Below are positions 1 to 38,208 of a DNA stretch of 41,430 bases, piece after piece (position 1 is the first letter of the stretch; each line of letters begins with the position of its first letter). A program made the translations under genes and the position numbers. The notes beneath the pieces are model-generated. The model saw only the letters and a list, made by a program, of their open reading frames with translations, had not been told where the DNA came from and did no database searches. Origin of the DNA: Candidatus Moraniibacteriota bacterium (lineage in GTDB: Bacteria; Patescibacteriota; Minisyncoccia; Moranbacterales; UBA2206); contig JAUXSI010000027.1 of the NCBI GenBank assembly GCA_030679985.1, positions 1 to 41,430 on the forward strand, read 5' to 3'.

Positions 1-133
1 TTTAAAAATTCAAAACCCAAAATAACAAATCCCAGATAAATTACAATTACCGAAATCCAAAATATAAAAACAGTTTTGAATTTTGAAATTTATAATTTAT
101 TTGAATTTTTAAATTTGGAATTTGTGATTTAAT
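1..133. repeat. AT-rich dispersed repeat, intergenic copy A (AAATCCCA/GAAATCCAAAAT words followed by complementary TTTGGAATTTG-type words)
   Basis: CAAAACCCAAAATAA (11-25), ACAAATCCCA (25-34) and GAAATCCAAAAT (52-63) recur inside pheS and/or pheT; the 3' half has the opposite-strand pattern. Confidence 0.65.
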
Positions 134-2884: not shown

Positions 2885-3922
2885 ATGGATATCAGAAGAA
2901 TCCAAGATACGGACTTGGAAAACAAAAAAGTTTTGCTCAGGGTGGATTTCAACGTGGCGGTGGAAAACGGCAAGGTCAAGGAATCTTTCAAAATCGCGGC
3001 GGCCAAAGAAACATTGGACTATCTATTAAACAAAAATTGCAAAGTGGCGATGATTTCCCATTTGGGGCGGCCGGACGGCCAGGTTGATCCGGAATTTTCA
3101 CTGGGACAAATCGTCAGCGACGCACAGGAAATTTTGGCGACCCATCTGGAATTTGTGCCGGATTGCGTGGGTGGGAAAGTGGCCGAGGCCGTGGAGAATA
3201 TGCAGGGTGGCGCTTTGCTCTTGGAAAACGTACGTTTTTACGCGGGCGATGAAGCCAATGATGCTGAATTTGCGAAACAGCTGGCGGAAAATTTCGATGT
3301 GTTCGTGCAGGACGCTTTCAGTGTCAGCCATCGCGACCAGGCTTCGGTGACGGGCGTGGCCAAAGTCTTGCCAAGCTGCGCCGGATTCAGATTGCTGGAA
3401 GAAATCCATGAGATGACCATCATCAAGGATCATCCAATCCACCCGGCCGTGGCTATCATCGGCGGAGCGAAAATTGAAACTAAATTGCCGGTCATCAAGT
3501 TTTTTGAAGAAAAGTATGATCATATTTTGGTCGGCGGCAAAATCGCCAACGAAGCCCTGGACCAAAATATCGAATTTTCCGACAAAGTGGTTTTGCCGAT
3601 TGATTTCGTGGATGACCGTTTGGATATCGGGCCGGAAACCGTGGCCAAATTCAAAGAGATCATCGCGACGGCCAAAACGATTGCCTGGAACGGTCCGACC
3701 GGTAAGTTTGAAGATGAAAAATATGCCCAGAGTTCCAATGAGATCCTGACGGCGGTCATCGCGAGCGGTGCTTTCGTTTTGGTAGGCGGCGGCGAAACCC
3801 TGGAAATCTTGGAAAAAAACAATGCAATGCATGAAATTTCCTTTGTTTCAACTGGCGGCGGAGCGATGCTGGACTATCTGGCTGGCAACCGGATGCCGGG
3901 CATCGAAGCCTTGAAAGATTAG
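2885..3922 (+). CDS. pgk: Phosphoglycerate kinase
   Basis: LRVDFNVAVENG, SHLGRPDG, GGAKIETKLPVI, AWNGPTGKFE, VGGGETLE, STGGGAMLDYLAG. Confidence 0.96.
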   Translation: MDIRRIQDTDLENKKVLLRVDFNVAVENGKVKESFKIAAAKETLDYLLNKNCKVAMISHLGRPDGQVDPEFSLGQIVSDAQEILATHLEFVPDCVGGKVAEAVENMQGGALLLENVRFYAGDEANDAEFAKQLAENFDVFVQDAFSVSHRDQASVTGVAKVLPSCAGFRLLEEIHEMTIIKDHPIHPAVAIIGGAKIETKLPVIKFFEEKYDHILVGGKIANEALDQNIEFSDKVVLPIDFVDDRLDIGPETVAKFKEIIATAKTIAWNGPTGKFEDEKYAQSSNEILTAVIASGAFVLVGGGETLEILEKNNAMHEISFVSTGGGAMLDYLAGNRMPGIEALKD

Positions 3923-29873: not shown

Positions 29874-29911
29874 GAATATAAAATTATAAAAATGATGGAT
29901 TTTAAGAAGTT

Positions 29912-29975
29912 TTTATTTTTGGAATTTAGGATTTTAAATCCGGTCGTGATCCGTAATTTTGAATTTGTAATTTAA
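29912..29975. repeat. AT-rich dispersed repeat, copy B (opposite orientation) between the two permease genes
   Basis: TTTTTGGAATTTAGGATTTTAAATCC...GTAATTTTGAATTTGTAATTTAA is the complement-type pattern of the AAATCCCAAATTCC words. Confidence 0.5.
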
Positions 29976-34647: not shown

Positions 34648-35724
34648 TTGGATTTCAGTAAAAAAATGTTGGAACAAAAAATACTGGGCATAAAAACCGA
34701 AGCACTGGAGAAAATACGGAGCGTCAAAGACGATGCCGGACTTTTTGAGTTTGAAAAAATGTATTTAGGCCGGAAAAGCGAGTTTACGGGCATCTTGAAG
34801 GGGCTTAAGGATTTGTCGCCGGAAGATAGGAAGAAAATCGGGGAGTTGGCCAATGCTGTTAAGAGGGAGATTTCCGAAGCATCGGAGGCAAAAAGGCGCG
34901 AATTAAAAAACGCTGGTTTTGATTTGGAAAGCGAGCGGATCGATGTGACGATTCCGGGCAAGACAAACGGTTATGGCCATTTGCATATCTTGTCTATCGT
35001 CCAGCGGGAAATCGAGGATATTTTTACCGCGATGGGATTTGAAATCGCCGACGGTCCGGAAGTGGAACGGGAATTCTATAACTTCGACGCGCTCAATGTC
35101 GCCAAGGACCATCCGGCGCGCGATATGCAGGACACATTCTGGCTAAAGCCGGAAATCCAAAATCCGAAATCCAAAACCCAAAATAAATCAGAGCATATCT
35201 TGTTGCGCACGCACACTTCGCCAGTGCAGGTGCGCTATATGGAAAAAAATAAGCCGCCGTTCAGGATTATCGTGCCGGGACGCGCTTTCCGCAACGAAGC
35301 GACGGATGCCACTCATGAGCATACCTTGCATCAATTCGAGGCATTGGTCGTGGGTGATTCGGTGAATGTGGGGAATTTCAAACATATCGCGGAAACTTTC
35401 TTTACGAAATTTTTCGGGAAAAAACTGGAAATCCGTTTGCGGCCGAGCTATTTCCCGTTCGTGGAACCCGGTTTCGAATTCGATATCAGCTGCACGGTCT
35501 GCGGCGGACGGGGATGTCCTTCTTGCAAGCACATCGGCTGGTTGGAAGTCGGCGGCGCCGGCATGGTCAACCAGAACGTTTTCGTTTCGGCGGGCTATAA
35601 AAGGAACGCATACCAGGGTTTCGCCTGGGGATTCGGCTTGGAGCGGCTGGCGATGATGAAGTATAAAATCGATGATATCCGCTTGATCGAAAGCGGGGAT
35701 CTGAGGTTTATCAGGCAATTCTAA
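34648..35724 (+). CDS. pheS: Phenylalanyl-tRNA synthetase alpha subunit
   Basis: LLRTHTSPVQVRYM, GRAFRNEATDATHEHTLHQFE, FRPSYFPFVEPGFE-like, GFAWGFGLERLAMMKY; start TTG 34648 or ATG 34666. Confidence 0.96.
   Translation: MDFSKKMLEQKILGIKTEALEKIRSVKDDAGLFEFEKMYLGRKSEFTGILKGLKDLSPEDRKKIGELANAVKREISEASEAKRRELKNAGFDLESERIDVTIPGKTNGYGHLHILSIVQREIEDIFTAMGFEIADGPEVEREFYNFDALNVAKDHPARDMQDTFWLKPEIQNPKSKTQNKSEHILLRTHTSPVQVRYMEKNKPPFRIIVPGRAFRNEATDATHEHTLHQFEALVVGDSVNVGNFKHIAETFFTKFFGKKLEIRLRPSYFPFVEPGFEFDISCTVCGGRGCPSCKHIGWLEVGGAGMVNQNVFVSAGYKRNAYQGFAWGFGLERLAMMKYKIDDIRLIESGDLRFIRQF
35151..35190. repeat. AT-rich dispersed repeat, copy C, inside pheS coding sequence
   Basis: GGAAATCCAAAATCCGAAATCCAAAACCCAAAATAAATCA; shares 15-mer CAAAACCCAAAATAA with copy A and GAAATCCAAAAT with copies A and D. 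Confidence 0.75.
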
Positions 35725-35772: not shown

Positions 35773-38208
35773 ATGAAATATAGCTATAACTGGCTCACGG
35801 AGCTAAGCGGCACGAAATTATCTCCGGAAAAACTGCGGAATCTCTTGATGTTGCGGTCTTTTGAAGTGGAAGGCTTGGAAAAAACTGGTCAAGGTTTAGA
35901 GGGTGTGGTTATCGGAAAAATCCTGGAAATCGCCAAGCACCCGAATGCGGATAAATTGCAATTGACCAAAGTCGATGTCGGAAATGCTGTTTTGGATATA
36001 GTATGTGGAGCGAAAAATATCGAAGTCGGGCAAAAAGTTCCGGTGGCGATGGTGGGCGCGAAATTACCCAACGGCATTGAAATAAAAGCGGCGGAAATCC
36101 GGGGCGAGAAATCCTCCGGGATGTTATGCGCCAAAGACGAGCTGGGGCTGGGCGAAGACCACGCGGGGATTTTCATATTGGACAAGGACGCGAAGATCGG
36201 CATGGCGTTGGCAAAATTTCTGGAATTGGATGATGTGATTTTGGATATCGACATCCTGCCTAATCGGGCGCATGATTGTCTGGGCTATGTCGGCGTGGCG
36301 TATGAAATCACCGCTATAGAAAATAGAGGATTCGATTATGATTATAGCGGTTTGAAATTGCCAAAGGTGAAATCTAAAAAATTGAAGGTCGAAGTGGCTG
36401 ATAAGGAATTATGTCCGCGGTATATCGGGGCGGTGATGGAAAACATCGAGGTGAAAGAATCGCCGCAATGGATGCAGGCGAAATTGTCGGCTTCCGGCAT
36501 CCGTCCGATCAACAATATCGTGGACGCGACGAATTTCGTGATGTTGGAATTGGGGCAGCCGATGCATGCCTTTGATTTTGAGAAAGTTTCAGGCATGAAA
36601 TCCAAAATCCCAAATTACAAATCCCAAATAAATCCAAAATCACAAATTCAAACATGCAATATTATCGTCCGCAGAGCCAAAGAAGGCGAGGAGATAAAAT
36701 TATTGGACGATGAAGTTAAAAAATTAGATAAAGATAACTTGGTTATCGCGAATAATAAGGAAGTTCTAGCAATCGCAGGCGTGATGGGGGGACTTAATTC
36801 AGGCGTCAATCCGGAAACGCAAACCATTATTTTGGAAAGCGCCAGTTTTAATGCAGTTTCCGTCCGCAAGACCCGCGTGGGGCTTGGTTTGAAAACGGAC
36901 GCCTCGGACCGTTTTGAAAAGGATATCGATCCGAACTTGGCGGAAAAAGCCATGGTGCGGGCGGTAGAAATCATCGAGCATATCGCCGGCGGGAAACTGG
37001 AAGGCATCGCGGATATTTATCCCAAAAAGGTGAAACCGTGGAAAATAAAATTGGATTTGGAATACGCGAATAAACTTTTGGGGGAAAATATCCCTTTTAA
37101 AAGATCGATCCAGATATTGAAATCCCTTGGAATGGATATCTCAGGCAAAGATGGGAAATTGACTGTCGGAATTCCGACATACCGCGTCGATATCAAAACC
37201 CAAGAGGATTTGATTGAAGAAATCGGGCGGATTTTCGGATATGAAAACATAAAATCACAGCCGATGGTTGCGCCGCTTGTGCCGGCCAAGGTGAATAAGG
37301 AACGGTTTTTTGAAAGGAACGTTAAAAATACCCTGGCGGGTCTCGGATTCGATGAGGTATATAATTATTCTTTCTACGGCCAAAAAGATGCCAATGACTG
37401 CGCCTTGGGGGAAATAAAACATCTGGAGTTGGCCAATCCGATGAATCCCGGCCAGCAATTGATGCGCGTCAGCCTCATTCCGAATATTTTAAAAAATGTC
37501 CGGGATAATCTGAGGAATTTCAAGAGCTTCAATATTTTTGAAAGCGGGCGGGTCTATTGGCCGGACGGGGAAATCTTGCCGGAAGAAAGGAAAATGGTGG
37601 TGATGGCGGTCGTGCTGGAACATGATAAATCCGCGGAAACTTTTTTTGCGGCCAAAGGCGCGGCCAGCGACCTGTCGGACAAACTTGGCATCAAGAACGT
37701 CTATTTTGATAATTTCGACGCGGCACCGTCCGATTCGCTGCTCGGCTTGTGGCATCCGGGCAGGAGCGCGGAAATCAAAGTTGAAGGTATGGACGGAAAA
37801 ATCGGATATATCGGGGAAATCAATCCGCTCATCTTGCCGCTGTTCAAGATCAACCGGCGTGTGGCGATGGTCGAATTGGATCTGGAAAAATCGATGGAGG
37901 CGGCGGATGTCGAATTGAAATTCGAAGCCATTCGGAAATACCCGACGGTTTTGCGTGATATTTCCATTTTGGTCGGGCGCGAAATCACGGTTGGCGGAAT
38001 AATTAAAAATATAAAAAAATCCGGCGCCGGCTTGGTTGTGGGCGTCGAACTGTTTGATGTCTTCTGCAAAGAAGAAAAAAACAGCTTCGCTTTCCATATC
38101 GAATTGGGTGCGATTGATCATACGCTGGAAAGTTCCGAAATTGACGCGGTAATGGCGAAAATAATATCCGGACTGGAAAAAGAGCTGGGCGCGGAAATTA
38201 GGAAATAA
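35773..38208 (+). CDS. pheT: Phenylalanyl-tRNA synthetase beta subunit
   Basis: tRNA-binding domain (GVVIGKILEIAKHPNADKLQLTKVDVG), B3/B4, B5, FDX-ACB C-terminus. Confidence 0.96.
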   Translation: MKYSYNWLTELSGTKLSPEKLRNLLMLRSFEVEGLEKTGQGLEGVVIGKILEIAKHPNADKLQLTKVDVGNAVLDIVCGAKNIEVGQKVPVAMVGAKLPNGIEIKAAEIRGEKSSGMLCAKDELGLGEDHAGIFILDKDAKIGMALAKFLELDDVILDIDILPNRAHDCLGYVGVAYEITAIENRGFDYDYSGLKLPKVKSKKLKVEVADKELCPRYIGAVMENIEVKESPQWMQAKLSASGIRPINNIVDATNFVMLELGQPMHAFDFEKVSGMKSKIPNYKSQINPKSQIQTCNIIVRRAKEGEEIKLLDDEVKKLDKDNLVIANNKEVLAIAGVMGGLNSGVNPETQTIILESASFNAVSVRKTRVGLGLKTDASDRFEKDIDPNLAEKAMVRAVEIIEHIAGGKLEGIADIYPKKVKPWKIKLDLEYANKLLGENIPFKRSIQILKSLGMDISGKDGKLTVGIPTYRVDIKTQEDLIEEIGRIFGYENIKSQPMVAPLVPAKVNKERFFERNVKNTLAGLGFDEVYNYSFYGQKDANDCALGEIKHLELANPMNPGQQLMRVSLIPNILKNVRDNLRNFKSFNIFESGRVYWPDGEILPEERKMVVMAVVLEHDKSAETFFAAKGAASDLSDKLGIKNVYFDNFDAAPSDSLLGLWHPGRSAEIKVEGMDGKIGYIGEINPLILPLFKINRRVAMVELDLEKSMEAADVELKFEAIRKYPTVLRDISILVGREITVGGIIKNIKKSGAGLVVGVELFDVFCKEEKNSFAFHIELGAIDHTLESSEIDAVMAKIISGLEKELGAEIRK
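36597..36655. repeat. AT-rich dispersed repeat, copy D, inside pheT coding sequence
   Basis: GAAATCCAAAATCCCAAATTACAAATCCCAAATAAATCCAAAATCACAAATTCAAAC encodes KSKIPNYKSQINPKSQIQT between AFDFEKVSG and NIIVRRAKEGE. Confidence 0.8.

Follow-up and report, generated by a model that had tools for sequence, protein, structure and literature searches.

The in-frame insert in the phenylalanyl-tRNA synthetase beta subunit (PheT) of a Candidatus Moraniibacteriota bacterium is, on balance, best read as one tolerated arm of a family of palindromic elements that are built from heptads and linked to S23/IVS-type elements. Three forms are seen: an S23/IVP gene with an inverted heptad arm on either side (form I; one clear case of the pheT word family, in the same-genus genome G001); gene-less two-arm hairpins of 92-135 bp, located in intergenic spacers, in 16S helix 39 and in lspA (form II); and single A-rich in-frame arms in protein genes, e.g. 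pheT, pheS, ligA and the Mur ligase and HypF-like genes (form III). The whole stretch of DNA analysed, referred to here as the window, is 41,430 nucleotides long (assembly GCA_030679985.1, contig JAUXSI010000027.1). Its genome, G000, is a fragmented MAG that is 93% complete, and the census reported below was compiled from searches and fetched stretches.

Table 1. Arms of the repeat family and their host genes in the window.
Feature	Position in window	Strand	Basis or remark
Single A-rich heptad arm, in frame in pheT	36595..36655	+	Repeat search and sequence model; without counterpart in sister species
pheT, phenylalanyl-tRNA synthetase beta subunit	35773..38208	+	B3/4 domain (residues 214-406) contains the insert
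Shorter arm of the pheT repeat family, in frame in pheS	35152..35189	+	Also in same-genus G001
pheS, phenylalanyl-tRNA synthetase alpha subunit	34648..35724	+	ORF and domain identification
Full two-arm hairpin copy, upstream of the first ORF	14..131	.	Arm mapping
Degraded arm between two permease genes	29911..29966	-	Arm mapping

The pheT ORF is uninterrupted and encodes 811 amino acids. The repeat inside it, in the context GGC-ATGAAATCCAAAATCCCAAATTACAAATCCCAAATAAATCCAAAATCACAAATTCAAACATGC-AAT, is read in the PheT frame as MKSKIPNYKSQINPKSQIQT, i.e. ~20 residues at about residues 275-294. PheT of G001, the only same-genus genome found, is 87% identical overall but lacks the insert and reads ARVIG-GRIVVRRAKKGEQ there. 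Likewise, alignment of a solved bacterial PheT with the window PheT reveals a clean 21-residue gap at the insert. In the AlphaFold model, pLDDT falls below 50 over a segment of three or more residues only at residues 277-290, and the insert is predicted to be an unstructured loop. We note that the same PheT loop contains an IPNPKSKIPS insert in G033, a genome of another family, and different 7-base words (e.g. CAAATCG, AACTAAC, and AACAAGG) in other genomes. A stop check of the 61-base element showed that frames +0, +2, and -0 are open and that frames +1, -1, and -2 contain stops. CATG flanks the pheT copy at either end (within GCATG...CATGC), a pattern that is not evident at other sites. The PheT copy is most likely a neutral passenger.

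Within the window, AAATCCAAAATC occurs three times, always on the + strand and confined to the pheS and pheT copies; it was not found on the window's other strand. Because the pheS copy is also present in G001 and the pheT copy is not, the pheS copy must predate the split between G000 and G001, and the two inserts differ in age. As with PheT, neighbouring genomes have other 7-base words at the same PheS loop. As a separate observation, S23 genes are located between pheS and pheT in several relatives, adjoining the genes that bear arms in the window.

With the repeat as query, BLAST returned 22 matches (E<=1e-3) in the G000 genome of 1.07 Mb, and a 55-position sequence model identified 28 arms there at E<=0.001; copies number in the dozens per genome. 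An arm consists of A-rich 7-base words in an array that contains a single 4-base phase step (AAATAAAT): in 37 aligned arms, AAAT or A tracts recur every 7 bases, and this step is conserved. The repeat is present in 23 of the 37 genomes of the order, and the arm model matches 73 of 287 phylum genomes at E<=1e-4, single-contig genomes included, and 0 of 28 AT-rich clostridial genomes. Relatives were sampled densely only at the order level. An assembly artefact was ruled out by the copies in single-contig genomes and by orthologous copies in two assemblies. A search of Rfam found no family for the element; the matches that passed the gathering score were all to rRNA or tRNA.

A sequence-only reading of the window had claimed that an AT-rich dispersed repeat, placed at 36597-36655, is translated within pheT, that both subunits of the synthetase bear it, and that it is free of stops in the given orientation and frame. 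All three claims held, and the PheT alignment, the structure prediction and the genome-wide census supported the reading. The lack of other genomic copies, or absence of the insertion from alignments, would have refuted the claim, and neither was the case. That reading did not include the palindrome-arm nature of the repeat, its full form between genes and in 16S rRNA, the heptad array, the greater age of the pheS copy, or the same architecture flanking S23/IVP genes.

In four genomes (G000, G001, G014, and G033), we identified 51 two-arm inverted elements of the form II size, nearly all of them between genes. A full two-arm element is in frame in lspA in three of the four genomes, and a full palindromic copy is located at the tip of helix 39 in the 16S rRNA gene (G000 C25:43000-46168, stretch positions 2610-2790). 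Hairpins of various words are found at this tip in G000 and 13 relatives, with folding z values of -4.5 to -10.1, and seven others have short loops. The majority of placeable hairpins (35/40) lie between co-directional genes, and elements often span the whole gap from stop codon to start codon. The arms of one element are less alike than arms taken from other elements in the same genome (21.2 vs 24.8, sd 0.7), and a simple symmetrical palindrome model was rejected on this basis. Two arm types can be distinguished, a (..AAATAAATTCAAAATTCCAATTTTCAAAATTC) and b (..AAATAAATTACAATGACCAAAATTCAAAATTTAAAA); the b-arm consensus ATGACCAAAATTCAAAATTTAAAA translates as MTKIQNLK (core ATG ACC AAA ATT CAA AAT TTA AAA). 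Further, at one locus with highly similar flanking genes in G000 and G001 (G001 stretch 1972-2416), an S23 element and a hairpin are seen in the same spacers of both genomes, but their word families differ and the S23 gene has diverged strongly; in a third spacer, the copy is the same in both. This occupation of the same spacers by different words indicates that the elements are replaced or rewritten at fixed sites.

Protein genes, in turn, almost always carry a single arm, the two-armed lspA copies aside. The arms common to G000 and G001 are those in the Mur ligase gene, the HypF-like gene, ligA site 1, an ORF of 145-152 amino acids and pheS; those seen in one genome only are in pheT (G000) and in the U32 peptidase gene and full-length ligA sites 2 and 3 (G001 stretches), and still other genes bear arms. 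In all 31 genic single arms of the four genomes, the A-rich strand is the coding strand, although orthologous pairs are not independent and the 31 copies represent about 26 sites. One forward frame of the arm consensus is interrupted by a stop (AAA TAA). When the codon phase of the AAA(T/C)AAA motif was determined for 25 arms, 15 and 7 were in the two open phases and 3 were in the stop phase; CAA replaces TAA in 3/3 stop-phase arms, and TAA is kept in 18/22 open-phase arms. In form III, the strand that is read is always the A-rich, hydrophilic one, and the arm's one possible stop codon is avoided; this bias in strand and phase fits random arrival followed by purifying selection. In ileS of G000, an arm is in the stop phase with TAA intact, and the ORF is split into 295 and 690 amino acids; the sister G001 ileS is intact and has no arm. 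The split (C14:6600-10700, stretch positions ~2029-2073) could reflect a frameshift, an assembly error or decay. Because the genic single arms are neither clearly a nor clearly b type, they are perhaps not decayed hairpins. We also note a G014 genic arm (stretch 3603-3647) that is followed by an apparent second translated repeat with the peptide CPERSRR.

The link to S23 genes rests on their flanks. The S23/IVP family (PF05635), which resembles the Avd protein of diversity-generating retroelements (PMC10053308), was detected in 30/37 order genomes and 111/192 phylum genomes, and in 0/14 control genomes. Using a fixed scoring scheme and ORF calls made without a gene finder, we obtained a median flanking inverted-repeat score of 17.5 for 71 S23 genes compared with 8.0 for 690 control ORFs of similar length, and a score of at least 15 was reached by 49 of the former and 13 of the latter (p=4e-37). 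When the upstream flank of one S23 gene was paired with the downstream flank of another, the rate fell to 4%. At further loci across the phylum, a strong inverted repeat was found at 15/27 S23 genes vs 1/124 controls (p=1.5e-12). The S23 flanks have period 7 whatever the word, with self-match values of 0.46/0.44 at lag 7 and 0.41/0.39 at lag 14, compared with 0.28 and 0.27 in the control. No strong flanking repeat was seen in about 30% of the 71 S23 genes. We conclude that the heptad repeat architecture is associated with S23 genes.

Strong arms of the pheT word family were found at only one of the S23 genes examined, in G001, and at none in G000, whose S23 genes are flanked by different words or by weak repeats. 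In the G001 gene, whose product matches solved structure 2rld, the ATG lies within the upstream arm. This is a b arm, with 40.7 bits on a b model for whose training gene-less hairpins alone were used; the inverted arm downstream leans slightly to a (20.7 vs 18.2). Because the b arm contains the S23 start, the hairpins look like S23 elements minus the gene body, a view that depends on this one clear case.

How the three forms are related is inferred. We propose that form I would be an IVS-type mobile element, for which no transposition has been observed, and that forms II and III may descend from it, the gene and one arm having been lost. The S23 four-helix-bundle protein, or a partner that it recruits, may bind the heptad arms and promote their spread. 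The pheT copy would be tolerated because the A-rich arm encodes a flexible N/K/S/Q/P/I loop, and selection would remove the other orientations, the T-rich second arm and the stop-containing frames. A consistent target-site duplication was not found at the sites examined.

We considered several other explanations, each of which appears unlikely. First, the repeat could be a MITE or REPIN-like hairpin that is mobilised by a conventional transposase of the Y1 (HUH/RAYT) or another type, with the S23 gene as mere cargo. The elements are indeed palindromic, short, dispersed and gene-less, and Y1_Tnp genes are present in 23/37 order genomes. However, a search for Y1_Tnp, the only transposase family searched, yielded no match in G000 or in G033, both of which are rich in copies, and one weak match in G001; the want of a cognate gene in G000 disfavours mobilisation by RAYT. 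The lack of a consistent target-site duplication at the sites examined, and arms that are 7-base arrays and not REPs of 20-40 bp, also count against this explanation. Second, heptads could have expanded in tandem by slippage, independently and locally in many loops and spacers, as in cyanobacterial STRRs and without mobility. The strong period 7 and the other 7-base words at the same PheT and PheS loops in neighbouring genomes speak for this. However, independent slippage would yield neither a common 55-position consensus with a conserved phase step nor two-arm polarity, and the association with S23 genes also counts against it. Third, a host-functional RNA or DNA signal under selection (a terminator, an RNase III processing site or a spacer insulator), with genic arms as side products, has in its favour the strong folding of the 16S copies and the frequent filling of the stop-to-start space, but is opposed by the co-directional context of most hairpins, which makes for poor terminator sites and disfavours a terminator function, by arms inside ORFs, and by different word families in orthologous spacers of sister species.

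Known palindromic and IVS systems offer partial parallels to the Moranbacteria repeat; no description of the literal repeat, of heptad arms or of the dispersed family was found in the open-licence papers searched. The nearest parallel for in-frame palindromes is provided by the Rickettsia palindromic elements (RPE), dispersed palindromes of ~100-150 bp that occur in frame in unrelated protein genes (PMC10969869). In both systems, extra peptide segments are encoded in unrelated genes (here, the 31 single arms). However, Moranbacteria genic copies are nearly all single arms, pheT included, with only the lspA copies two-armed; full palindromes are found here between genes, in 16S rRNA and in lspA; and the heptad-array arms, the S23 link and the Patescibacteria host also differ.

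In 23S rRNA, intervening sequences that carry an S23 ORF and have terminal inverted repeats are already known; their origin and role are called unclear, and mobility has been proposed (Coxiella IVS, PMC4990558). IVP ORFs in CPR rRNA insertions are called functionally uncharacterised (PMC11270868), and we did not find hairpins, inverted repeats or palindromes mentioned in that paper. Our elements resemble IVSs in the terminal inverted repeats around the S23 ORF at S23-bearing loci (49/71 and 15/27), although the pheT copy contains no separate ORF, and in hairpins at rRNA helix tips (here 16S helix 39; 23S was outside the analysis), although the pheT copy is in a protein gene. They differ in being dispersed genome-wide beyond rRNA, in their gene-less and single-arm forms and in their period-7 word arrays, and RNase III excision has not been shown. 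Cyanobacterial STRR heptamers are dispersed 7-base repeat units, which the tandem 7-base units and the period 7 of arms and S23 flanks recall; to our knowledge, STRRs do not occur as two-arm palindromes with a phase step and are not tied to S23 genes. REPIN/RAYT elements and other MITEs are small dispersed palindromes without their own transposase (PMC3116915, PMC3733652), as are the elements described here; in contrast to these systems, no Y1 transposase was found in G000, the arms exceed the 20-40 bp of REPs, and a consistent target duplication was not seen.

A bolder reading, which we hold only tentatively and consider rather doubtful, is that S23/IVP genes and heptad arms form a phylum-wide class of Patescibacteria mobile elements, in which the S23 protein would recognise the 7-base words and drive both the spread and the word-homogenisation of the gene-bearing, hairpin and single-arm forms. 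If true, there would be a function for the S23 protein of rRNA intervening sequences, and new protein loops would arise repeatedly from translated single arms. The strong phylum-wide association of S23 genes with period-7 inverted arms, together with the gene-less and half forms in rRNA and essential protein genes, allows a direct test of the old proposal that the ORF has a role in mobility, and tiny genomes are seen to turn DNA repeats repeatedly into protein loops under visible reading-frame selection. Lastly, with regard to arm structure, we note that three copies have a GC-rich palindrome (like CCTGCCTGCCGGCAGGCAGG) nested within the T-rich arm, at the same position in each.
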